64,000 nt of DNA from Kriegella aquimaris (GTDB lineage: Bacteria > Bacteroidota > Bacteroidia > Flavobacteriales > Flavobacteriaceae), in the NCBI RefSeq assembly GCF_900103215.1, contig NZ_FNGV01000001.1:1054001-1118000 (forward strand), in the 5' to 3' direction. Below the pieces are notes generated by a model that was not told the DNA's origin, did no database searches, and saw only the letters and a list, made by a program, of their open reading frames with translations. The translations under genes and the position numbers were made by a program. Positions within the stretch are counted from its first letter, which is position 1. Every line of letters starts with the position of its first letter. Positions 49,775 to 63,957 of this stretch are shown piece after piece.

Positions 49775-50002
49775 ATGAAAAATACTGCTATGTTTTGGGT
49801 GATGGCCACCACTTTAGTATTGGTAACCGTAACAATAATGGCTCTAATGAATCTTCCTTTTAACTGGGTGTTCTATGTTACCATATTGGGGCAACTAATG
49901 ATTGTTTATATGGTCTATAAAGTTTTGACAGATAATTACAAGACCAGCAAAACCTTTGAGCACTTTTACAATGATTACCCGATACAATCAAGAATCAATT
50001 AA
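49775..50002 (+). CDS. small two-helix membrane protein
   Basis: 75 aa. Two hydrophobic helices at ~5-26 and ~30-50 (MFWVMATTLVLVTVTIMALM; VFYVTILGQLMIVYMVYKVL) and a polar tail ending YPIQSRIN. Unknown function. It overlaps the 3' end of the convergent Usp gene by 15 bp. Confidence 0.7.
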   Translation: MKNTAMFWVMATTLVLVTVTIMALMNLPFNWVFYVTILGQLMIVYMVYKVLTDNYKTSKTFEHFYNDYPIQSRIN

Positions 50003-50893
50003 AAACTGATCTTCTTTTCTATTCTTTTTTCTTGATGGAGCTTCCATGCCCAATTCGGGAATGACCAAAAATGGAATCTGCGTATGAAAGGCCACCCGCT
50101 TTATGACCAGTTCACGGGTCATAAGCTCGACATAACTATGTTGATAGTTCAGCATTGCCAAGAGATGTATGTCCAGTTCTTTAGAAAATACCTCTAACGT
50201 TTTTGATACCGAGCTCAATTCCGAAACCGTATGCACATAATGCTCTATATCTTTCAAATACTTCCGCAACATATTCAAATTAAAAAGTTGAAGCTCTGTC
50301 AGGGCCTTTATTTCGTATTGTACATGAACAATACGTATAACGGCGTTAAAAGTTTTCGCCATTTCAATCAAAGGTTCAAGTTCTGACGCGGTATAGAAGC
50401 GATTAAAATCGGTGGCAAATGCAATTTCCGAAGGTCTTTCAAACTCATAATGCTGCGGTATTGCCAAAACGGGGCAATTTTTAATTGACTTAATTATTCG
50501 TACGGTATTACTACCCATAAAAACCTCGTCAAAGCTCGAAGCACCTTTGGTACCGGTTATAACCAAATCGATGTTTTCTGCGGCCACTATCTCTTTTACT
50601 TGGTCCACCAAAAGACTAAAAGAAGAAATATTCTTGAAGCTATGGTTCGGATTGTCATGCGCTTCTTTGATGCGTTTCACTATCGCTTGCAACCCATTGA
50701 TTGAATTGTTGTGCGTTGCATCTACCACACCATTCTGAATAGATGATGCCATAAATCGACTATTTGCAATACTTGGGGTATACGTGTTGAGTAAATGAAA
50801 AACACATTTCTCATCTTTAAACAAGGCGAGTGCGTAGTTAATAGCATTCCATGCATTTTCAGAAAAATCGGTGGGAATCAAGATATTTTTCAT
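49988..50893 (-). CDS. universal stress protein, two Usp domains
   Basis: 301 aa from MKNILIPTDFSENAW; the 12 upstream in-frame residues are not family-like. First Usp domain ~1-147, with VITGTKGASSFDEVFMGSNTVRI close to the ATP-binding motif. The second domain (~150-290) lacks a clear GxxGxxxxS. A Crp/Fnr-type palindrome lies 56 nt upstream of the start with the same spacing to a -7-like box as at ccoI and ccoS, suggesting low-oxygen induction. Confidence 0.9.
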   Translation of the reverse strand: MKNILIPTDFSENAWNAINYALALFKDEKCVFHLLNTYTPSIANSRFMASSIQNGVVDATHNNSINGLQAIVKRIKEAHDNPNHSFKNISSFSLLVDQVKEIVAAENIDLVITGTKGASSFDEVFMGSNTVRIIKSIKNCPVLAIPQHYEFERPSEIAFATDFNRFYTASELEPLIEMAKTFNAVIRIVHVQYEIKALTELQLFNLNMLRKYLKDIEHYVHTVSELSSVSKTLEVFSKELDIHLLAMLNYQHSYVELMTRELVIKRVAFHTQIPFLVIPELGMEAPSRKKNRKEDQFLIDS

Positions 50894-50917: not shown

Positions 50918-50960
50918 TAAAACTATCAAATGCCATTCTCTGAAACTATGACATATATCA
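50918..50960 (-). promoter_or_regulatory. Crp/Fnr-type operator and -7-like element upstream of usp
   Basis: On the minus strand TGATATATGTCA (50949-50960) fits TGA-N6-TCA. It is followed after exactly 23 nt by TAGTTTTA (50918-50925), one mismatch from TAnnTTTG. The same spacing occurs upstream of ccoI and ccoS. Confidence 0.7.
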
Positions 50961-51105
50961 GCTTTTCAAAGCGGCTATTGAACCTTACCAAAAGGTTAAA
51001 ACGGTTTTTGATTGTTGATATTTATACCGTTCAGTTTTTGAAAAGAAGACCATAAAAGCAAGATTTCCAAGAGTGTGCGAACCATCATGATTTAAATTAT
51101 TTCTT

Positions 51106-51807
51106 CTAGTATCCTTCCGCTAAATCTCGAAGTCCCTTTTCATTGACAATACCCATTTTCTTGCCATAATTTTTCAACAATCCCTTCTTTTTGAACTCCG
51201 AAATTATTCGAATACACGATTCCGTAGCCGTGCCGACAACATTGGCAATATCATCACGGGAGAGTGTTAAAAGCAAAAATCCATTTTCATCTTCCCCAAA
51301 ATTATTTTTCAAATACAAAAATGCGGCCGCAACCCGCTGTTTTACAGTTTTTTGTGACATATTCACAATAACATCATCAGCTTCCTTAAGGTCGTGTGCC
51401 ATGTGTCGCAGCACCTCCATCGTAAAGTTCGGATTTGTATTTAAGGTGCTAACAATAATTTCTTTAGGTATAAAGCACACCTCCATATCATTCAAGGCCG
51501 TGGCACTCAAATTTGACAACTCTTCAGCGATTACCGAACGCTGCCCGATAACCATGCCTTTTGCTGCTAATTTTACCGTTTGGTCCTTTCCGTTCGCACT
51601 CAGTTTTGAAAGTTTTGAAACGCCGTTACGCACGCAAAAAACACCTTTAAGGGTTTCTCCTTCTTCAAAAATCGTTTCTCCTTTTTTTACCGTTTTGGAA
51701 GTTTTACTCTGAGAGACCTTTTTTAATTCTTCTTTGCTCATCGCACGTAGCGAATTGAATTGCCTAACTATACATTGCTCACATTGCGATTCAATTCCAT
51801 TTTCCAT
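51106..51807 (-). CDS. Crp/Fnr-family transcriptional regulator
   Basis: 233 aa from MENGIESQCEQC; an earlier Met adds 8 residues. Cyclic-nucleotide-like domain ~25-150 (FEEGETLKGVFCVRNGVSKLSK), dimer helix, and helix-turn-helix at ~185-215 (LSRDDIANVVGTATESCIRII). The N-terminal Cys pair (CEQC) recalls FNR, but a full four-Cys Fe-S set is not evident. It is divergent from ccoI and next to three sites with its expected palindrome, so it is the probable regulator of this respiratory cluster. Confidence 0.92.
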   Translation of the reverse strand: MENGIESQCEQCIVRQFNSLRAMSKEELKKVSQSKTSKTVKKGETIFEEGETLKGVFCVRNGVSKLSKLSANGKDQTVKLAAKGMVIGQRSVIAEELSNLSATALNDMEVCFIPKEIIVSTLNTNPNFTMEVLRHMAHDLKEADDVIVNMSQKTVKQRVAAAFLYLKNNFGEDENGFLLLTLSRDDIANVVGTATESCIRIISEFKKKGLLKNYGKKMGIVNEKGLRDLAEGY

Positions 51808-51856
51808 ATATTCAGCTTTTACCTGGAGCACAAAGTTAAGGGCTCACTAAATATTC

Positions 51857-51904
51857 TAATATGATATAAGTCATATTATAAGAGCCACTACTATACGAAC
51901 TTTG
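51857..51904 (+). promoter_or_regulatory. Crp/Fnr-type operator and -7-like element upstream of ccoI
   Basis: TAATATGA-tataag-TCATATTA (51857-51878) is a perfect 8+8 bp palindrome with the TGA-N6-TCA core. After exactly 23 nt comes GAACTTTG (51897-51904), matching the TTTG of the -7 consensus. It sits between the regulator gene and ccoI and could serve both. Confidence 0.8.
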
Positions 51905-51927
51905 CAATAGGTATAGGTAAATGTTTT

Positions 51928-54324
51928 ATGGATAGGATCAACTGTTATCATTGTGGTGATGATTGTGGCAATGCTGCCATTTCTTTCGATTCGAAAAATT
52001 TCTGTTGTAACGGTTGTAAGACCGTCTATGAAATATTTTCAAGCAATGACCTGTCTTATTATTATGACTTACAATCGGCAGCAGGCACTACCCCTAAAGT
52101 CGTTGAAAGCAAATACGATTTTCTTGATACCTCAACCATAGTTCAAAGGTTGACCGAATTCAACGACGGCAATCTGCAAATTGTCAACCTTTATATTCCG
52201 AGTATTCATTGCAGTTCCTGTATTTGGGTATTAGAGAACTTGAACAAACTTAACCCCGCGATTACCAGCTCACAAGTCGATTTTCCTAAGAAAACAGTAC
52301 GAATCACTTATGCATCCGATACCATTTCTTTAAAGGCATTGGTTGTTCTTCTGGCTCGTATAGGCTATGAACCCAATATCTCGTTAGCCGATTATGACAA
52401 TAAAGAAAAGAAAACGGACCGTAGCCTTATTTACAAATTGGGAGTTGCCGGTTTTGCCTTTGGCAATGTTATGTTTCTTTCTTTTCCCGAATATTTTGAC
52501 TTGGCCACTAGCAAGTCAGACGGAGGAGAATTCTGGCTGAACCAGTATCAGAATGTGTTCCGTTGGTTGATGTTTATCTTTTCGTTACCCGTAGTTTTTT
52601 ATGCGGGGCGTGATTATTTTATTTCAGCCGTCAAAGGTTTACGCAGTAAATTTTTAAATATAGATGTACCGATCGCCCTGGGGATTTCAGTATTATTTTT
52701 AAGAAGTACCATTGAAATCATCTTCGACTGGGGACCGGGATTCTTCGATTCTTTGACCGGGCTGGTGTTTTTTCTACTACTTGGAAAATTCTTTCAGCAG
52801 AAAACATATTCTTTTCTGTCTTTTGAAAGAGATTACAAATCGTATTTTCCCATTGCCGTTACCCGAGTTTTATCTGGAGGAAAGGAAGAAAGTATTCAAG
52901 TACACAATCTGAAAAAAGGCGACCGATTATTGATTAGAAATGAAGAACTCATCCCCGTGGATGGAATTCTTATTCGCGGTAATGCACGAATCGACTATAG
53001 TTTCGTGACCGGGGAATCTGAGCCCGTACATAAGCAATCTGGGGATAAGATTTTCGCAGGTGGCAAGCAATTGAACGACGCGATCGAAATCGAGACCTTA
53101 AAATCGGTTTCCCAGTCATATCTCACCCAATTATGGAGTAATGCTATTTTTCAAGACGACAAATCTACCAAGTTTCAATCGCTCACCGATAGTATCGGAA
53201 AACGTTTTACCATTTCAGTTTTGTCAATCGCTTTTGCAGCAGCCGCATATTGGCTCTTTTATGATAGCAGCAAAGCGTTGAATGTTTTTACCGCAGTTTT
53301 GATTATCGCCTGTCCGTGTGCTATTGCACTGGCATCTCCCTTTACTTTGGGAAATATGCTCCGTATTTTCGGAAGAAAGAAATTCTACCTAAAAAATACG
53401 CAGACCATTGAACAACTCGCACAAGTCGATACCGCCATTTTTGATAAAACCGGCACCATTACAACAGCTCAAAAAAGTACGGCAAGCTACGAGGGGATGC
53501 CCCTAACATCAGACGAGGAGTCTCTTTTGAAAAATACCCTAAGGGCGTCGAACCATCCTCTGAGCCGAACGTTGTACAATATGTTGGCGGAGCAAGATAT
53601 AATTACTTTAGACGAGTACGAAGAACATTTGGGCAAAGGTGTTGAAGGCAGTATCGACGGCGAACATATTAAAATAGGCTCCGCCGATTTCACGGGTTAT
53701 CATCAAGATTCCGCAGCCTTGAATACATCCGTTCATATCAACAGCAACAATACCTATAAGGGCAAATATGTGTTTCATAACGAGTATCGGGATGGAATTT
53801 CTGAAGTCTTCAAAAATATGTCGGAAACCCTGCAACTTGCCATTCTTTCAGGCGATAATGAAGGGGAAAAACCACGTTTAGAGCAGTTGTTACCAAAACT
53901 TACTCCTTTGTTTTTCAATCAAAAACCCGAAAACAAGCTTGAATTTATCAAAGAGTTACAAAATCAGGGCAAAAAAGTTATGATGGTCGGCGACGGTTTG
54001 AACGATGCGGGAGCATTGGCCCAAAGCGATGTGGGTATAGCCATTTCAGAAAACGTAAATGTGTTCTCCCCAGCCTGTGATGGAATCTTAGATGCCACAA
54101 AATTCAAATGGTTGTATCAATATATCTTGGCCTCAAAAAAAGCAATCAAAATTGTAAAGTTGAGTTTTATGCTATCGCTTTTATATAACGTAGTCGGGCT
54201 CTATTTTGCCGTAACAGGACAGTTGCAACCGGTAATTGCCGCAATCTTGATGCCATTGAGTTCTATTAGCATTGTCATCTTTACAACGGTGATGACAAAT
54301 ATTTTAGGAAGAAAGTTGAAATAA
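51928..54324 (+). CDS. ccoI: copper-translocating P-type ATPase for cbb3 oxidase assembly
   Basis: 798 aa. The N-terminal Cys-rich metal-binding segment (CYHCGDDCG; FCCNGCKTVYEIF) is typical of the CcoI/FixI group, followed by a heavy-metal-associated domain with CSSC. Eight membrane helices; the ion motif is CPC in IIACPCAIAL. Phosphorylation Asp is in FDKTGTIT, actuator in VTGESEPV, and hinge in MMVGDGLNDAGAL. It exports copper used in maturing the CcoN active site. First gene of the oxidase cluster. Confidence 0.96.
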   Translation: MDRINCYHCGDDCGNAAISFDSKNFCCNGCKTVYEIFSSNDLSYYYDLQSAAGTTPKVVESKYDFLDTSTIVQRLTEFNDGNLQIVNLYIPSIHCSSCIWVLENLNKLNPAITSSQVDFPKKTVRITYASDTISLKALVVLLARIGYEPNISLADYDNKEKKTDRSLIYKLGVAGFAFGNVMFLSFPEYFDLATSKSDGGEFWLNQYQNVFRWLMFIFSLPVVFYAGRDYFISAVKGLRSKFLNIDVPIALGISVLFLRSTIEIIFDWGPGFFDSLTGLVFFLLLGKFFQQKTYSFLSFERDYKSYFPIAVTRVLSGGKEESIQVHNLKKGDRLLIRNEELIPVDGILIRGNARIDYSFVTGESEPVHKQSGDKIFAGGKQLNDAIEIETLKSVSQSYLTQLWSNAIFQDDKSTKFQSLTDSIGKRFTISVLSIAFAAAAYWLFYDSSKALNVFTAVLIIACPCAIALASPFTLGNMLRIFGRKKFYLKNTQTIEQLAQVDTAIFDKTGTITTAQKSTASYEGMPLTSDEESLLKNTLRASNHPLSRTLYNMLAEQDIITLDEYEEHLGKGVEGSIDGEHIKIGSADFTGYHQDSAALNTSVHINSNNTYKGKYVFHNEYRDGISEVFKNMSETLQLAILSGDNEGEKPRLEQLLPKLTPLFFNQKPENKLEFIKELQNQGKKVMMVGDGLNDAGALAQSDVGIAISENVNVFSPACDGILDATKFKWLYQYILASKKAIKIVKLSFMLSLLYNVVGLYFAVTGQLQPVIAAILMPLSSISIVIFTTVMTNILGRKLK

Positions 54325-54335
54325 AAAAAAGAAAC

Positions 54336-54379
54336 ATGACAAATGTCATTTTATAGGGATTGGTGCGGACGTAGTTTTA
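54336..54379 (+). promoter_or_regulatory. Crp/Fnr-type operator and -7-like element upstream of ccoS
   Basis: ATGACA-AA-TGTCAT (54336-54349) contains TGA-N6-TCA. It is followed after exactly 23 nt by TAGTTTTA (54372-54379), the same sequence as at usp. It lies just after the ccoI stop codon, so ccoS and the oxidase genes can be expressed independently of ccoI. Confidence 0.78.
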
Positions 54380-54398: not shown

Positions 54399-54593
54399 AT
54401 GAGTGTTATTTATGTGCTATTGGCCATCAGCCTCGTCGTTGCGGTCATCTTTTTCACTGCATTTATTGTATCCGTCAAGAGCGGTCAGTATGATGATTCA
54501 TACACACCCTCTGTGCGCATGCTGTTCGAAGATGAACTGGTCAAGGATAAACCTTCCGAAGAAAAAGAAAAACAAAAAAAGAGTAACAAATAG
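54399..54593 (+). CDS. ccoS: cbb3 oxidase maturation protein CcoS
   Basis: 64 aa. One membrane helix (MSVIYVLLAISLVVAVIFF..), then GQYDD and a short charged tail, exactly as in CcoS/FixS proteins, which are needed for cofactor insertion into cbb3 oxidase. Position between ccoI and ccoN is canonical. Confidence 0.92.
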   Translation: MSVIYVLLAISLVVAVIFFTAFIVSVKSGQYDDSYTPSVRMLFEDELVKDKPSEEKEKQKKSNK

Positions 54594-54755: not shown

Positions 54756-56936
54756 ATGGAGGTACAGCAGTTTTATTACGACAACAAAATTGTTAAAAAG
54801 TTTCTTTACGCTACAATGTTTTGGGGAATTGTCGGAATGTCGGTCGGTCTAATGTTGGCCTTCCTTTTTATTTTCCCTAATTATATGGAAGGTATTTCAT
54901 GGCTTAGTTTTGGTCGATTACGTCCATTGCATACCAATGCCGTTATCTTTGCCTTCGTAGGTAATGCGATTTTCGCAGGTGTTTACTATTCGACGCAACG
55001 TCTTCTGAAAGCACGAATGTTCAATGATTTTCTGAGTAATTTTAACTTTTGGGGCTGGCAGGCGATAATTGTCGCAGCGGCAATAACACTCCCATTAGGG
55101 TATTCCTCCTCAAAAGAATATGCAGAGCTAGAATGGCCTATCGATATTGCAATCGCTATTGTCTGGGTCGCTTTTGGCGCTAACCTGATTGGCACAATGA
55201 TCAAAAGAAGGCAGCGCCATTTATACGTTGCCATTTGGTTCTATCTGGCAACTTTTGTCACTGTAGCCGTACTCCATATTTTCAACAGTTTAGCACTTCC
55301 TGTTAGTGCCTTTAAAAGTTATTCTGTTTATGCCGGCGTTCAAGATGCATTGGTTCAATGGTGGTACGGTCACAATGCCGTGGCATTTTTCTTGACGACC
55401 CCGTTTTTGGGGCTGATGTACTATTTTGTTCCTAAAGCGGCGAATAGACCCGTTTATTCCTATAAACTTTCAATCGTTCACTTCTGGTCATTGATTTTCA
55501 TATATATCTGGGCCGGACCCCACCACTTGCTCTATTCTGCACTACCCGATTGGGCACAGAATTTGGGCGTCGCTTTTTCCATTATGCTACTTGCGCCTTC
55601 CTGGGGGGGTATGATCAACGGACTCTTAACGCTACGCGGGGCTTGGGATAAAGTACGTACCGATCCGACCCTGAAGTTTATGGTAGTGGCAATTACAGGC
55701 TATGGAATGGCCACCTTTGAAGGTCCCATGTTATCGCTTAAAAATGTAAACGCAATTGCCCATTTTAGCGACTGGATTATTGCCCACGTACACGTTGGTG
55801 CTTTGGCATGGAACGGATTTTTAACATTCGGAATGATTTATTGGTTAGTACCCAAAATGACGAAAACAAGATTGTATTCAGTAGGTCTCGCGAACGTTCA
55901 TTTTTGGATCGGCACCTTGGGTATCATCTTATATGCCCTACCCATGTACGTCGCCGGGTTCACCCAAGCTTTAATGTGGAAGGATTTCAACCCTGACGGT
56001 ACTTTGGTATATGGTAACTTTCTTGAGACCGTCACCGAGATTATGCCCATGTATTGGATGCGTGCCATCGGAGGAACGATGTATATTATCGGGGCCTGCG
56101 TAATGATTTATAACGTTGTGGCAACTATCAGATCAGGAAGCAAAGTGGAAGACGAATTGGCCGAAGCTGCTGCCTTGACCCGTGTTTCAAAAAGAAGAAC
56201 AGCTGGCGAAACCTTTCATACCTGGTTGGAGCGCAAGCCGATACAATTGACCATTTTGGCTACGATAGCTATTTTAATTGGAGGAATTATTCAAATTGTA
56301 CCTACGATATTGGTCAAATCGAACATCCCTACAATTACTAGTGTGAAACCTTACACGCCCCTGGAATTGGAAGGACGCGATCTTTATATTCGAGAAGGTT
56401 GTGTAGGTTGTCACTCGCAAATGGTACGGCCGTTCCGTAGTGAAGTCGAGCGTTACGGTGAATATGCGAAGGCTGGGGAGTTTGTATACGATCACCCTTT
56501 CCTTTGGGGAAGTAAACGTACGGGTCCAGATTTATTAAGAGTTGGCGGTAAATATTCCGATAACTGGCACCTCAATCACATGTATGACCCCCAAACCACA
56601 TCAGCTGGTTCAATTATGCCGTCTTATTCGTGGTTGGTTCGCGATGCGCACGACAGAAGCAATATTAAGACAAAAATGGAGACCATGGTGACATTGGGAG
56701 TACCCTATACCGAAGAAGATATCGCAAATGCCGAGACGAGTATGGATCAACAAGCTGCCCAAATAGAGAAAAATCTTTACAGTGATCCCGATTTTGCAAA
56801 TAGTTATGAAGCCGATAAAAAGTATGCCGCTGAGAACGGTGAAGAATTCATAGCCATGAAAGACCGTGAAATTGTAGCACTCATTGCATATTTACAGCGT
56901 TTGGGTACCGATATCAAAATTAAGGATACCGAATAA
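54756..56936 (+). CDS. ccoNO: cbb3-type cytochrome c oxidase, fused subunits I and II
   Basis: 726 aa. Residues ~1-470 are CcoN: twelve membrane helices with haem/CuB histidines (RLRPLHTNAVIFAF; WWYGHNAVAFFLTTPFLG; GPHHLLY; AHVHVGALAWNGF). A linker leads to CcoO (~510-720), a membrane-anchored monohaem cytochrome c with CVGCHSQMVRPF and distal Met in GSIMPSYSWL. The N-O fusion is usual in Bacteroidota. It reduces O2 to water at low oxygen and pumps protons. Confidence 0.97.
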   Translation: MEVQQFYYDNKIVKKFLYATMFWGIVGMSVGLMLAFLFIFPNYMEGISWLSFGRLRPLHTNAVIFAFVGNAIFAGVYYSTQRLLKARMFNDFLSNFNFWGWQAIIVAAAITLPLGYSSSKEYAELEWPIDIAIAIVWVAFGANLIGTMIKRRQRHLYVAIWFYLATFVTVAVLHIFNSLALPVSAFKSYSVYAGVQDALVQWWYGHNAVAFFLTTPFLGLMYYFVPKAANRPVYSYKLSIVHFWSLIFIYIWAGPHHLLYSALPDWAQNLGVAFSIMLLAPSWGGMINGLLTLRGAWDKVRTDPTLKFMVVAITGYGMATFEGPMLSLKNVNAIAHFSDWIIAHVHVGALAWNGFLTFGMIYWLVPKMTKTRLYSVGLANVHFWIGTLGIILYALPMYVAGFTQALMWKDFNPDGTLVYGNFLETVTEIMPMYWMRAIGGTMYIIGACVMIYNVVATIRSGSKVEDELAEAAALTRVSKRRTAGETFHTWLERKPIQLTILATIAILIGGIIQIVPTILVKSNIPTITSVKPYTPLELEGRDLYIREGCVGCHSQMVRPFRSEVERYGEYAKAGEFVYDHPFLWGSKRTGPDLLRVGGKYSDNWHLNHMYDPQTTSAGSIMPSYSWLVRDAHDRSNIKTKMETMVTLGVPYTEEDIANAETSMDQQAAQIEKNLYSDPDFANSYEADKKYAAENGEEFIAMKDREIVALIAYLQRLGTDIKIKDTE

Positions 56937-57026
56937 TAAATCTTATAAAGAAATAAGTTAGCGACAGTATAAAATATTAAGGGTTCAGTGTCATTGCGCT
57001 AGGTTCTAACTTCTAAAAATAAAGAC

Positions 57027-57212
57027 ATGTTTAAATTTGTAAAGGGGTATATGGAGAGTATTGAAGGAGTAGCCACCTATCCCATGATATCATTATTAAT
57101 CTTCTTCATATTTTTTGTAGTGCTTTTCTTGTGGGTAGTTACCGCTTCAAAAGCACATGTCAAAGAAATGAGCGAATTGCCCTTAGAAGATGATAACGAC
57201 ATCGCAAACTAA
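57027..57212 (+). CDS. ccoQ: cbb3 oxidase small subunit CcoQ-like
   Basis: 61 aa. One membrane helix (SLLIFFIFFVVLFLWVV) followed by an acidic tail (PLEDDNDIAN). Size and position between ccoNO and ccoP are those of CcoQ. Sequence conservation in this family is low, so context carries much of the call. Confidence 0.82.
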   Translation: MFKFVKGYMESIEGVATYPMISLLIFFIFFVVLFLWVVTASKAHVKEMSELPLEDDNDIAN

Positions 57213-57303
57213 GGAGCCAATAGCGACAGTCAACTGAATTTTTCTTCCAACTAAAGAAAAATTAAAAGAATGAATACCAACTATCAATATAAAATTAAAT
57301 AAT

Positions 57304-58191
57304 ATGAAAAATGGATCAGCTTGGTGGATTAAGATCCCTTTAGCGTTCTTTCTAATCCTAGGATTGATGGAACTTTTAATCGACTCCGGAGACAAACCGG
57401 CAATCATCGAATACCCTCTTCTCCAGATTTTTATGGTATTCATCCTATTCTTAATGATCATTATACAGATTATTTTGAATGCCATCGAGAATGTGATGTT
57501 CCAGACGCTTTCAGAAGAAGCTAAAGCGCGTTATCTGGAAGATAAGAGCAATACTTGGGAATGGAAATGGGGCAAAAGAACATATGAAAAATTATTGGGC
57601 TCTAAACCCATGGAGGCAGAGCAAGAAATTATTCTTGATCATAATTATGACGGTATACGCGAATTGAACAATAAGTTACCGCCTTGGTGGGTGTACATGT
57701 TCTACGCATCAATAGTCTTTGCTATTATATACATGTTACGTTTTCATGTTTTTGGAGGCTATGACCAAGATTTAGAATACGAACAAGACGTCGCAGCGGC
57801 TCAACTTGAAATAGAAGCATACAAGAAAACCGCAAAAGATTTGGTCGATGCAAATACGGTAGAACTTATGACCGATGCTTCCGATCTTAAAGCCGGCAAG
57901 ACCATTTTCGAAAGTAACTGCGTAGCCTGTCATATGGCCGATGGAGGTGGTGGAATCGGTCCAAATTTGACCGATGAACATTGGATTTTAGGCGGTGGTA
58001 TCAAAAATGTATTCCATACCATATCGGAAGGTGGACGTGACGGCAAAGGTATGATTGCCTGGAAACAGACACTCAAACCATTAGAGATCGCTCAAGTTTC
58101 CAGCTATGTATTGACCAATATAAATGGTACTCCTCCTGCAAATCCGAAAGCTCCGGAAGGAGATATTTGGGTAGCTGAAGAAACGCCCTGA
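57304..58191 (+). CDS. ccoP: cbb3 oxidase subunit III, monohaem CcoP
   Basis: 295 aa. Two N-terminal membrane helices (~9-25 and ~37-60), a cytoplasmic stretch, a third helix (~118-140; WVYMFYASIVFAIIYMLRF) and one cytochrome c domain at ~195-280 with CVACH and GPNLTDEHWI; axial Met likely in GMIAW. Only one CxxCH motif occurs, while proteobacterial CcoP has two. It delivers electrons to CcoNO. Confidence 0.93.
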   Translation: MKNGSAWWIKIPLAFFLILGLMELLIDSGDKPAIIEYPLLQIFMVFILFLMIIIQIILNAIENVMFQTLSEEAKARYLEDKSNTWEWKWGKRTYEKLLGSKPMEAEQEIILDHNYDGIRELNNKLPPWWVYMFYASIVFAIIYMLRFHVFGGYDQDLEYEQDVAAAQLEIEAYKKTAKDLVDANTVELMTDASDLKAGKTIFESNCVACHMADGGGGIGPNLTDEHWILGGGIKNVFHTISEGGRDGKGMIAWKQTLKPLEIAQVSSYVLTNINGTPPANPKAPEGDIWVAEETP

Positions 58192-58328
58192 AAAAAAAAT
58201 CAAGCAGCACTAGTTTTTATAATTGACAAAAACCAAGGAAAAAGGAACCGTGTACTAAATTTTAGTACTCCAAATCCCTACTCGCTATTTTAGAAAAACG
58301 AAAAGGGTACAACGTATAGCAATTCAAG

Positions 58329-59747
58329 ATGTCACAGGAAAAAGAGCAGTTTAGGGATTCAATAGGTACCATCAACGAAGATGGTAAGAGGGCCTGGCTC
58401 TATCCTAAAAAGCCGAGCGGCCGATTTTATCAGTACCGAAAGTATGTAAGCTATCTTTTACTGGCCCTTTTATTTGCAGCTCCATTTGTAAAAATCAATG
58501 GCAATCAGTTCTTGATGTTCAATGTTCTGGAACGTCGCTTTAATATCTTCGGACTCCCTTTCTGGCCTCAAGACTTCTATCTATTTGTTATTTTAATGAT
58601 TATCGGAGTTGTTTTCATCTCTCTTTTTACCGTTGCCTTCGGACGTATTTTTTGTGGATGGATGTGCCCGCAAACCATTTTTATGGAAATGGTTTTCCGT
58701 AGGATCGAATATTGGATAGATGGGGATAGAGGTGCACAGATAAAATTAGACCGGCAAGAATGGAATGGTGAAAAAATTAGAAAGCGTGTGCTAAAATGGT
58801 TTATCTTTTTTATCATTTCGTTTCTGATTGCCAACATCTTCCTCGCGTACCTAATCGGCAGTGACCGACTGATCCAATACATAATGGATGGACCAATGCG
58901 TCACGTAAGCATCATGGTTTCATTATTGATTTTTACGGCTGTATTCTACTTTATATTTGCTTGGTTCAGGGAACAGGTATGTATTATCGCTTGCCCCTAC
59001 GGGCGTATGCAAAGTGTACTTCTTGACAACAAATCTATTGTTGTTGCCTATGATTACAAAAGAGGTGAGGCGGAAAACGGCAGAAAGAAATGGCGAAAAA
59101 ACGAAGACAGAAAAGAATTGGGCTTTGGTGATTGTATCGATTGCTTTCAATGTGTCAATGTGTGCCCCACAGGAATTGATATACGTAACGGTACACAACT
59201 AGAGTGCGTCAATTGTACCGCCTGCATCGATGAATGCGATACAATTATGGAAAAAGTTAACCTTCCTAAAGGATTGATTCGCTATGCCAGTGAAGATGAA
59301 ATCGTAAAAAAAGAAAAGTTCAAATTTACGCCCCGCTTAAAGGGGTATACCGCTGTCTTAACCATTTTGACGGGAATTTTAATCGGCATGCTTTTTCTTA
59401 GAAACGACTTGGAAGCCAATATTTTAAGGCTTCCCGGACAACTCTATGAGCACAAAGAAGATAATATTATCAGCAACGTGTACACATTTAAACTGGTCAA
59501 TAAGACCACAAAAGATGTCGAAGATGTTAACTTTAAACTTTTATCTCATAAAGGAACCATAAAATTGGTCAGCCATCAAGATTTTATAGTGCCCGCAAAA
59601 GAACTTGCCGAAGGCACCCTCTTTGTTGAAATCAACAATTCTGCCTTAACCGGTGATAAGAACAAAATAAAGATTGGAGTCTATAGTGGTGAAGAATTAA
59701 TAGAAACGACCACCACCGCATTTATGGGACCAAGAAGCTATAAATAG
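58329..59747 (+). CDS. ccoG: cbb3 oxidase accessory protein CcoG, polyferredoxin
   Basis: 472 aa. Membrane helices with CGWMCPQTIFMEM and CIIACPYGRMQ, then a double [4Fe-4S] ferredoxin region (CIDCFQCVNVCPTGIDI; CVNCTACIDECD) at ~275-310, another helix, and a C-terminal immunoglobulin-like domain. CcoG/RdxA reduces Cu(II) for oxidase assembly. Canonical position after ccoP. Confidence 0.95.
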   Translation: MSQEKEQFRDSIGTINEDGKRAWLYPKKPSGRFYQYRKYVSYLLLALLFAAPFVKINGNQFLMFNVLERRFNIFGLPFWPQDFYLFVILMIIGVVFISLFTVAFGRIFCGWMCPQTIFMEMVFRRIEYWIDGDRGAQIKLDRQEWNGEKIRKRVLKWFIFFIISFLIANIFLAYLIGSDRLIQYIMDGPMRHVSIMVSLLIFTAVFYFIFAWFREQVCIIACPYGRMQSVLLDNKSIVVAYDYKRGEAENGRKKWRKNEDRKELGFGDCIDCFQCVNVCPTGIDIRNGTQLECVNCTACIDECDTIMEKVNLPKGLIRYASEDEIVKKEKFKFTPRLKGYTAVLTILTGILIGMLFLRNDLEANILRLPGQLYEHKEDNIISNVYTFKLVNKTTKDVEDVNFKLLSHKGTIKLVSHQDFIVPAKELAEGTLFVEINNSALTGDKNKIKIGVYSGEELIETTTTAFMGPRSYK

Positions 59748-61655: not shown

Positions 61656-61761
61656 AAGTCGCTTCGATTACTGAAATTATTTTTTTGATAAAACCTGAAA
61701 CCAGTAACTTGCCTGAGTTTAGGCTCGAAAATTTATGTATTGATTGCATAATTTAATCTTT

Positions 61762-62151
61762 ATGGATAGAAAAGATATTCAAAATAGAAGCGACGTAAAA
61801 CTTTTGGTAGAAACGTTCTATGAGAAAATTCGCGTAGATAAAGTTCTTGGCCCCATATTCAATGGCATTATTACCGATTGGGATAGCCATTTGACCCTGT
61901 TGACCGATTTCTGGGAAACTCAACTTTTTCTAAAACGCAAATACTACGGCAACCCCGTAACCGCCCATCAAGAAGTTGACGATAAAATGAATCACACCAT
62001 AACTTCAGAACATTTTGGCTTGTGGCTGAACCTTTGGTTTGCTACAATAGACCAGCTTTTTGAGGGTGAAACCGCATGGATTGCCAAGAACAGGGCACAA
62101 AAAATGTCTACAATGCTATTTATGCAGATTTTTCAGCATAGAACAAAATAA
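61762..62151 (+). CDS. group III truncated haemoglobin
   Basis: 129 aa from MDRKDIQNRSD; a TTG 6 codons earlier is not needed. The 2-on-2 globin helices are recognisable: VETFYEKIRVDKVLGPIF, the LTDFWETQLF helix, and EHFGLWLNLWFATID with the proximal His. These proteins bind O2 or NO. Neighbouring Rrf2, ScdA and haemerythrin genes suggest a role in NO or low-oxygen handling. Confidence 0.9.
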   Translation: MDRKDIQNRSDVKLLVETFYEKIRVDKVLGPIFNGIITDWDSHLTLLTDFWETQLFLKRKYYGNPVTAHQEVDDKMNHTITSEHFGLWLNLWFATIDQLFEGETAWIAKNRAQKMSTMLFMQIFQHRTK

Positions 62152-62177
62152 TATTTCTTCAAAATTAGCAAAATTTT

Positions 62178-62220
62178 AATTCGGATAATTTTGTCCGAAT
62201 TATAACTTCCCTTATATTTG
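62178..62220 (+). promoter_or_regulatory. Rrf2-type operator overlapping the rrf2 promoter
   Basis: AATTCGGA (62178-62185) and TCCGAATT (62194-62201) form a perfect palindrome around TAATTTTG. The TTG (62191-62193) is followed after 19 nt by TATATTTG (62213-62220), a perfect Bacteroidota -33/-7 promoter. Binding here would block the -33 element, consistent with autorepression. The core GGATAATTTTGTCC recurs before the scdA-like gene. Confidence 0.82.
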
Positions 62221-62243
62221 TCTTGAATTAGAAACAAAACTTT

Positions 62244-62678
62244 ATGTTTTCAAAAGCCTGTGAATATGGTATAAAAGCCTCTACCTATATTGCACTGCAA
62301 TCAATCGAAGGAAAACGGACGAGCCTTCGTGATATTGCTAAAAAAATTGATTCGCCAGAGGCATTTACGGCCAAAATTTTACAGCTGTTAGCAAGAAATC
62401 AGATTATTGATTCGGTAAAAGGTCCATCGGGCGGTTTCCAAATCGAAAAAGATCAAATAGATAAAATTAAACTTAGCGAGATCGTCTATGCCATCGACGG
62501 CGATAATATTTATGTGGGATGTGGTCTAGGGTTAAAAGAATGTAATGCCCTTAAACCCTGCCCTGTACATGAAAAGTTCGTTGCTATACGCGATAATCTG
62601 AAAAAAATGCTTGAAAATACTAGTCTCTATGAAATGACCGCTGGCCTCGAAGTTGGCCTGACCTACTTGAAGCGCTAA
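62244..62678 (+). CDS. Rrf2-family transcriptional regulator, NsrR/IscR-like
   Basis: 144 aa. Winged helix at ~1-80 (FSKACEYGIKASTYIALQS; TSLRDIAKKIDSPEAFTAKIL; VKGPSGGFQIEKD). Three Cys in the effector loop (C93, C100, C106) could ligate an Fe-S cluster; the spacing x6/x5 is close to that of IscR and NsrR. Two palindromes of matching sequence lie upstream of this gene and of the next, making an NO- or Fe-S-responsive repressor of this module likely. Confidence 0.93.
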   Translation: MFSKACEYGIKASTYIALQSIEGKRTSLRDIAKKIDSPEAFTAKILQLLARNQIIDSVKGPSGGFQIEKDQIDKIKLSEIVYAIDGDNIYVGCGLGLKECNALKPCPVHEKFVAIRDNLKKMLENTSLYEMTAGLEVGLTYLKR

Positions 62679-62698
62679 AAAAAATTTATTTTAAAAAA

Positions 62699-62725
62699 GG
62701 ACAATTTTGTCCGTTATTATCTTTA
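62699..62725 (+). promoter_or_regulatory. second Rrf2-type operator, upstream of the scdA-like gene
   Basis: GGACAATTTTGTCC (62699-62712) is a perfect palindrome sharing the GGAyAATTTTGTCC core with the site before rrf2. A -7-like TATCTTTA follows at 62718-62725, so binding would occupy the region between the -33 and -7 positions. Confidence 0.78.
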
Positions 62726-62752
62726 AACAACTATCATATAAAATTTAAGATT

Positions 62753-63484
62753 ATGGAAAAGATACTCGAAAAGAACATAGGGCAAATAGTAGCTGAAGAT
62801 TATAGAACAGCCCAAGTTTTTAATAACCACAAGATAGATTTTTGTTGTAAAGGAAACCGAAGCATTTATGAAGTGGCAGAAAAAAGTAATGTAAGCACCG
62901 ATCAATTACTAAAAGAAATCGAAGCCATCTTGAATCAGGATACGACCGAATCAATAGATTTCAAATCTTGGCCACTAGACTTACTGGCCGATTATATAGA
63001 AAAAAAGCACCATCGTTACGTTGAAGAACGCATTCCCGTTTTAAAACAATACCTCAACAAATTATGTCGTGTACATGGTGAACGCCACCCCGAACTATTA
63101 GAGATTACCGACCATTTCGAAAAATCAGCGGGGGAATTGGCCATGCATATGAAAAAAGAAGAACTCATTCTTTTTCCGGCAGTACGTAAAATGATCAAGG
63201 CCAAGCAAACAGGTGCCAATTTCGATCGACCACATTTTGGTACGGTTCAAAACCCGATTGCCATGATGATGCAAGAGCATGAGACGGAAGGAGACCGATT
63301 TCGAAAAATAGATGAACTGAGCAACAATTACACTCCTCCTGCCGATGCCTGTAATACTTATAAAGTAGCGTTTTCATTGCTTCAAGAATTTGAACAAGAC
63401 CTTCACAGGCACATCCATTTAGAAAACAACATTCTGTTTCCTAAAGCGGAATTATTGGAAAGAGAATTGTCGGTATTGGTATAA
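62753..63484 (+). CDS. ric: iron-sulfur cluster repair di-iron protein, ScdA/RIC
   Basis: 243 aa. N-terminal ScdA_N/DUF542 domain at ~1-60 (IGQIVAEDYRTAQVFNNHKI; DFCCKGNRSIYEVA with the Cys pair), then a haemerythrin-like domain ~80-235 with the di-iron ligands in EKKHHRYV, HGERHPEL, MHMKKEELILFP, MMQEHETEGDRF and HIHLENNILFP. It repairs Fe-S clusters damaged by NO or oxidants. Preceded by an Rrf2 operator. Confidence 0.95.
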   Translation: MEKILEKNIGQIVAEDYRTAQVFNNHKIDFCCKGNRSIYEVAEKSNVSTDQLLKEIEAILNQDTTESIDFKSWPLDLLADYIEKKHHRYVEERIPVLKQYLNKLCRVHGERHPELLEITDHFEKSAGELAMHMKKEELILFPAVRKMIKAKQTGANFDRPHFGTVQNPIAMMMQEHETEGDRFRKIDELSNNYTPPADACNTYKVAFSLLQEFEQDLHRHIHLENNILFPKAELLERELSVLV

Positions 63485-63492
63485 AACCCGCT

Positions 63493-63957
63493 ATGATGGA
63501 AAAAACCGCACCACTTAAAAGAAAAAAAGAATTACAAGGCATAAGCCATGATCACCACCAAGGCCTGCTCCTTTGTTGGAAGATACGTACGGGGTTTTCA
63601 AAAGGCATTGAGTTAACAAGAATTAAACGCTATGCGGATTGGTTCTTTAAAATCCATCTAATGCCTCATTTCGAATTAGAGGAGCACTATATGTTTCCTA
63701 TTCTGGGCAAGGATAATAAACTGGTTAAAAAAGCCCTTGCCGAGCACCGAAGATTGATACGGTTATTTAAGGATCAAGAGATTCATAAGTCACTCGCCAA
63801 TATTGAAGAAGAACTTGAAAAACATATACGTTTTGAGGAACGCATACTCTTTAATGAAATTCAAAAAATAGCTACACCGGAACAATTAAATATAATTTCA
63901 AAACTACATAACGATGAGAAATTCAGAGACAATTCAAATGACCCATTCTGGACATAA
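63493..63957 (+). CDS. haemerythrin domain-containing protein
   Basis: 154 aa. Four-helix haemerythrin-like fold with ligands in GISHDHHQGLLL, HLMPHFELEEHYMFP, EHRRLIRLF and HIRFEERILF. It starts 8 bp after the scdA-like gene, so is cotranscribed. Probably binds O2 or NO, or stores iron for cluster repair. Confidence 0.92.
   Translation: MMEKTAPLKRKKELQGISHDHHQGLLLCWKIRTGFSKGIELTRIKRYADWFFKIHLMPHFELEEHYMFPILGKDNKLVKKALAEHRRLIRLFKDQEIHKSLANIEEELEKHIRFEERILFNEIQKIATPEQLNIISKLHNDEKFRDNSNDPFWT

Follow-up and report, generated by a model that had tools for sequence, protein, structure and literature searches.

About 35 promoters of Kriegella aquimaris form one set, in which a Crp/Fnr-type site lies exactly 23 bases before a TAnnTTT box. 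As judged from sequence comparisons, these sites are quite likely the operators of class II promoters activated by Crp/Fnr-type proteins, and they would constitute an Fnr-driven low-oxygen switch built on the Bacteroidota promoter box. The analysis was anchored on one window (the whole stretch of 64,000 nucleotides, G000:C36:1054001-1118000, in a genome of 6.06 Mb), for which the original prediction had described TGA-N6-TCA cores ahead of usp, ccoI and ccoS, each followed after 23 nt by a -7-like box. The relevant features, in window coordinates, are:

49988-50893, minus strand: usp, universal stress protein gene (Pfam PF00582)
50925-50918, minus strand: usp -7-like box TAGTTTTA, 23 nt from the Crp/Fnr-type site
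50949-50960, minus strand: usp Crp/Fnr-type site TGATATATGTCA
51106-51807, minus strand: fnr, gene for an Fnr-type regulator of 233 aa with invariant CxxC, position-70 and C122-position cysteines
51838-51831, minus strand: fnr-facing -7 box TAACTTTG, 23 nt from the ccoI/fnr palindrome
51862-51873, both strands: palindrome TGATATAAGTCA, common to ccoI (plus) and fnr (minus)
51897-51904, plus strand: ccoI -7-like box GAACTTTG, 23 nt from the palindrome
51928-54324, plus strand: ccoI, metal-transporting P-type ATPase for cbb3 oxidase assembly (Pfam PF12156, PF00122)
54337-54348, plus strand: ccoS Crp/Fnr-type site TGACAAATGTCA
54372-54379, plus strand: ccoS -7-like box TAGTTTTA, 23 nt from the Crp/Fnr-type site
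54399-54593, plus strand: ccoS (FixS; Pfam PF03597)
54756-59747, plus strand: remaining cbb3 oxidase cluster, named by reading the sequence, without family search: fused ccoN/O (54756-56936), ccoQ-like gene (57027-57212), ccoP (57304-58191) and ccoG (58329-59747)

All coordinates of the three predicted cores and their 23-nt gaps (N23) check out, and all three sites are real; the count was too low in that the fnr-facing promoter had been overlooked. With this perfect TAACTTTG box, reached after 23 nt when the ccoI palindrome is read on the minus strand, the window contains four promoters of the same design (usp, fnr, ccoI and ccoS). The predicted transcription starts of usp (50913) and ccoS (54384) are followed by the ATG 20 and 15 nt further on, respectively. 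The ccoS gene is probably the first of a ccoSNOQPG unit, and ccoP and ccoG have no N23 site of their own in the window. Further along the window (61744-63957), genes for an Rrf2 regulator, a ScdA-like di-iron repair protein and a hemerythrin-like protein are preceded by a small ORF that is globin-like but does not match Pfam; there is no N23 site ahead of these genes.

The bare TGA-N6-TCA core is found 24 times in the window, near the chance expectation of 18.4 +/- 4.3 and in line with the predicted 15 to 20 chance occurrences. Together with TANNTTT at N23, it yields three strict matches, compared to a mean of 0.12 in shuffled sequences (1 of 300 shuffles reached three). For the form with Y and R at the inner positions (TGAY-N4-RTCA), the same comparison gives 3 versus 0.047, and 0 of 300 shuffles. 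The three strict matches are the usp, ccoS and fnr-facing sites, as the ccoI box GAACTTTG lacks the first T.

Genome-wide, the loose pattern TGA-N6-TCA-N23-TANNTTT has 47 matches versus 7 for the reversed control, and the form with Y and R has 37 versus 0. When the gap was left free between 11 and 41 nt, 33 of 67 matches fell on 23 nt, 5 on 24 nt and at most 3 on any other spacing. In 31 of the 35 promoters for which the surroundings were fetched, the predicted start lies between -1 and 79 nt from the ATG (median about 20 nt); leaders in Flavobacterium psychrophilum have been measured at a median of 24 nt (PMC9723704). One palindrome elsewhere in the genome (G000:C35:160604) is flanked on each side by a TAxxTTTG box at N23, with a close start codon on one side only (universal stress protein). 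A scan for -33/-7 promoters (TTTG-N12-28-TANNTTTG) was dropped, since among the matches listed there were at least 964 versus 766 in the control.

Conservation was analyzed in 100 relatives (20 stretches picked from a phylum-wide search and 80 loci), which include Maribacter, Pricia, Muricauda/Allomuricauda and Arenibacter. The site with its N23 box is present ahead of ccoI in 94 of 97, ccoS in 90 of 92, usp in 79 of 81 and fnr in 58 of 100 relatives. As negative controls, ccoP and ccoG have an N23 site in 1 of 82 and 1 of 62 relatives; the 14 of 92 relatives with such a site at ccoN probably owe it to the ccoS site close by. At 23 nt, the spacing histogram of the orthologous promoters contains 92 (ccoI), 89 (ccoS), 79 (usp) and 56 (fnr) cases, with 0 to 7 at each other spacing from 10 to 40 nt. 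Deviations from the box consensus are promoter-specific. The ccoS and usp boxes mostly end in A instead of the G of TAnnTTTG, and the ccoI box begins with T in only 2 of about 95 relatives. In the window (51897-51904) and the relatives, the first base of this box is nearly always C, G or A. The box is thus weakened in a conserved way, which may make the promoter depend on its activator. Among 296 sampled Bacteroidota genomes, the strongest enrichment was seen within the same family (for example 51 versus 1, 43 versus 2 and 36 versus 1), and one genome from another family was clearly enriched (G270, 28 versus 0).

Inspection of the gene list, as the original prediction had proposed, identifies the cbb3 oxidase genes, the nos operon with nosZ, hemN and many universal stress proteins (by similarity to the Pfam-confirmed usp of the window) as targets of N23 sites. 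Others are a pyridoxamine-oxidase-like protein, a cation ATPase, MlaE, YtxH and DUF308 proteins, and a carboxymuconolactone-decarboxylase-like gene upstream of FtsH; Hsp20 has a site, and its box is a near-miss. Sec-type nosZ with neighboring nos genes, and hemN, are located just downstream of the window (L040:10936-16139, G000:C36 at about 1128.9-1134.2 kb), with an N23 site ahead of each of the two units. Most sites are concentrated in two islands (C19:29.9-65.4 kb and C36:609-657 kb). The islands also contain genes for PEP synthase, fructose-bisphosphate aldolase, acetate kinase and phosphotransacetylase, without a strict N23 match directly before any of them. The islands encode, in addition, look-alike proteins of about 135-152 aa with a motif like WKSxLxFYxDDLKFLxxL (L032:3097-3534, L032:5063-5488, L032:14270-14707, L034:5359-5817 and L035:4331-4738); two have their own N23 site, and none of the three that were scanned matched Pfam. 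A 186-aa protein with its own N23 promoter (L034:6271-6831) matches only the first 173 positions of an alternate F1F0 ATPase beta subunit and is possibly the product of a truncated or repurposed gene.

The Fnr-type regulator combines a cNMP-binding-type roll with a Crp-type HTH (Pfam PF00027, PF13545 and PF00325), and its best PDB relatives are the A. fischeri FNR structures (5cvr/5e44). Position numbers refer to the E. coli FNR sequence; the A. fischeri alignment gives the same positions. Equivalents of C20 and C23 (the CxxC motif) and of C122 are present in all 100 relatives of the regulator. The C29 equivalent, which would complete the C20/C23/C29/C122 ligand set of FNR, is missing in all 100 and replaced by N, S or T. 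Instead, all 100 have a cysteine at E. coli position 70, so that the cysteines of the regulator, numbered without the initiator Met, are C8, C11, C57 and C110. The position-70 cysteine is probably the fourth ligand of a predicted cluster, in place of the C29 equivalent. Among 69 CxxC proteins (from Bacteroidota, and E. coli FNR), 55 have the position-70 cysteine without a third N-terminal cysteine (+3 to +6), 13 have the third cysteine without the position-70 cysteine, none has both and one has neither. This split could be taken for strong mutual exclusion, but the tree requires only two or three changes rather than 69 events, and it is therefore suggestive only; the phylum-wide invariance of the position-70 cysteine is the stronger point. 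The recognition helix reads ExxIR in 100 of 100 relatives, with invariant Glu and Arg and without the Ser of the FNR motif ExxSR, and the regulator scores 105 bits with the NCBIfam Fnr model, below the cut-off of 228. An AlphaFold2 model (pLDDT 62.6, probably from an alignment of close relatives only) was not used. Descriptions of the regulon or of the cysteine arrangement were not found in the open-access papers searched.

The original prediction had assigned the sites to the adjacent Crp/Fnr protein. Of the proteins that could bind the window sites, this one is the likeliest, but there are other candidates. Two receiver-Crp hybrid response regulators (G000:C19:30058-31107, L031:4055-5107; and G000:C36:631300-632328, L035:7361-8428) have recognition helices near-identical to that of Fnr (ATES/T-x-IR) and may share the motif with it. 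Each adjoins an apparent PAS-type histidine kinase, within an island where N23 promoters and genes for universal stress proteins are densely packed. The motif also occurs (10/1, 11/1 and 16/0) in three family members that lack a close Fnr (none at E 1e-20), so that another regulator can use it, and a hybrid-sized Crp protein is present in them. It is thus conceivable, if somewhat doubtful, that the promoters are class II with one or both hybrids, driven by the neighboring kinases, as the principal binder, in the usp islands if not elsewhere, and with Fnr confined to the respiratory genes. Island sites would fit in having G or C at positions 5 or 8 more often than other sites (11 of 21 versus 0 of 11, Fisher p 0.0045), a difference that comes from small numbers, holds in this genome, fails across genomes and stays a suggestion. 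Against this reading, the sites at cco, usp and fnr belong to the A/T type and have been retained next to fnr itself, and G117 has A/T-type sites in spite of having a hybrid. Fnr and the hybrids may plausibly divide the labor, with respiration falling to Fnr and the stress islands to the hybrids.

The class II assignment is based on promoter geometry. E. coli CRP and FNR bind class II promoters with the site centered at -41.5. In F. psychrophilum, the TAnnTTTG box has been mapped to -12 to -5 (PMC9723704); if this position is applied here, the spacer of 23 nt extends from -35 to -13, and the palindrome is consequently centered at -41.5, with one fixed spacing to the -7 box. The prediction of activation near -40 is thus matched in position, with the geometry conserved before the same genes in dozens of genera, and activation itself appears likely on these grounds. 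As to the -33 element, in place of which the site would stand, TTG is nearly absent at -34 to -32 in the orthologous promoters, but a T-rich tract is present at about -33 to -30.

For Fnr-driven activation, we propose that an Fnr-type dimer would bind TGAY-N4-RTCA over the position of the -33 element and contact RNA polymerase with the Bacteroidota primary sigma factor on the TAnnTTT(G/A) box. The bound dimer would replace the -33 contact and so recruit the polymerase. At low oxygen, Fnr would carry a [4Fe-4S] cluster, held by the CxxC motif and the cysteines at positions 70 and 122, and would dimerize, thereby turning on the cbb3 oxidase genes, fnr itself and usp, and also a wider set with the nos operon, hemN and stress proteins. 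According to this model, fnr is probably autoregulated from the ccoI/fnr palindrome; the presence of the fnr-facing box in only 58 of 100 relatives is a point against the model. The missing C29 equivalent and helix Ser, the low NCBIfam score and the motif in the three family members that lack a close Fnr also speak against it, while the short predicted leaders, the A. fischeri FNR structures as best PDB relatives, the invariant Glu and Arg, and nosZ and hemN as targets speak for it. In F. psychrophilum, oxygen limitation strongly raises cbb3 oxidase and heme-synthesis genes, in keeping with the model; iron scarcity also raises some hypoxia genes (PMC9723704), which runs counter to the prediction for a plain Fe-S activator.

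A Crp/Fnr-type protein over the -33 region could also block RNA polymerase, as the sites overlap the position of that element and some Crp/Fnr proteins are repressors. Pure blocking needs no single spacing, yet N23 is fixed over dozens of genera; together with the scarcity of TTG at -34 to -32 and the conserved weak form of the ccoI box, which fits an activator-dependent promoter, this makes repressor operators very improbable. A purely accidental pairing of a short motif with an AT-rich box, to which the near-expected number of bare cores in the window might point, is contradicted by the counts (37 matches versus an empty control, the peak at 23 nt) and by the conservation in about 90 relatives, and is practically negligible, as the original prediction had anticipated.

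Promoters of Bacteroidota are unlike those of the E. coli type, and the action of activators on them is poorly understood. The single fixed spacing, found in about 35 promoters and many genera, provides a simple testable rule for finding the low-oxygen genes of a major marine bacterial group, nitrous oxide reductase among them. With slightly less than even confidence, we suggest that in Bacteroidota FNR-type regulators the fourth ligand has moved from C29 to the beta roll (position 70), and that in marine Flavobacteriaceae one -41.5 code is read by an Fe-S sensor as well as by receiver-Crp hybrids. If true, oxygen sensing and two-component signaling would be joined on one regulon, and the moved cysteine would add to the ligand arrangements of FNR-type sensors.

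In gene content, the set resembles, by analogy, the DosR dormancy regulon of mycobacteria and the Anr regulon of Pseudomonas, with many universal stress proteins, Hsp20, a pyridoxamine-oxidase-like protein and anaerobic metabolism. DosR is a different kind of regulator, and no homology is implied. The promoters share with E. coli class II CRP/FNR promoters the dimer site at -41.5, the 23 nt from TCA to the first T of the -10/-7 element and, perhaps, the lack of a proper -35/-33 element. They differ in using the Bacteroidota TAnnTTT(G/A) box with, presumably, the primary sigma factor, and in the half-site, which is TGAY rather than TTGAT or TGTGA. The regulator itself is like FNR of E. coli and A. 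fischeri (5cvr/5e44) in its cNMP-type beta roll, Crp HTH, CxxC motif, C122 equivalent and the Glu and Arg of the helix, and unlike FNR in the cysteine at position 70 instead of a C29 equivalent, in ExxIR instead of ExxSR, and in its score under the NCBIfam Fnr cut-off. BT4338, the Crp-like master regulator of Bacteroides, has a different consensus (wwwTATGTTnTAnAACATAwww) and a carbon-limitation regulon, and the BT4338/MalR site TATGTTnTAnAACATA does not correspond to the TGAY-N4-RTCA sites (PMC6989115). It is similar in being a Bacteroidota activator of the Crp/Fnr superfamily, and at fusA2 a palindrome is likewise combined with a putative -7 box (PMC6989115). Compared to these systems, the K. 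aquimaris set would be a regulon of a known kind, namely a conserved one of the class II Crp/Fnr type that operates on Bacteroidota promoters, and its likely sensor has its cysteines arranged in an unusual way.
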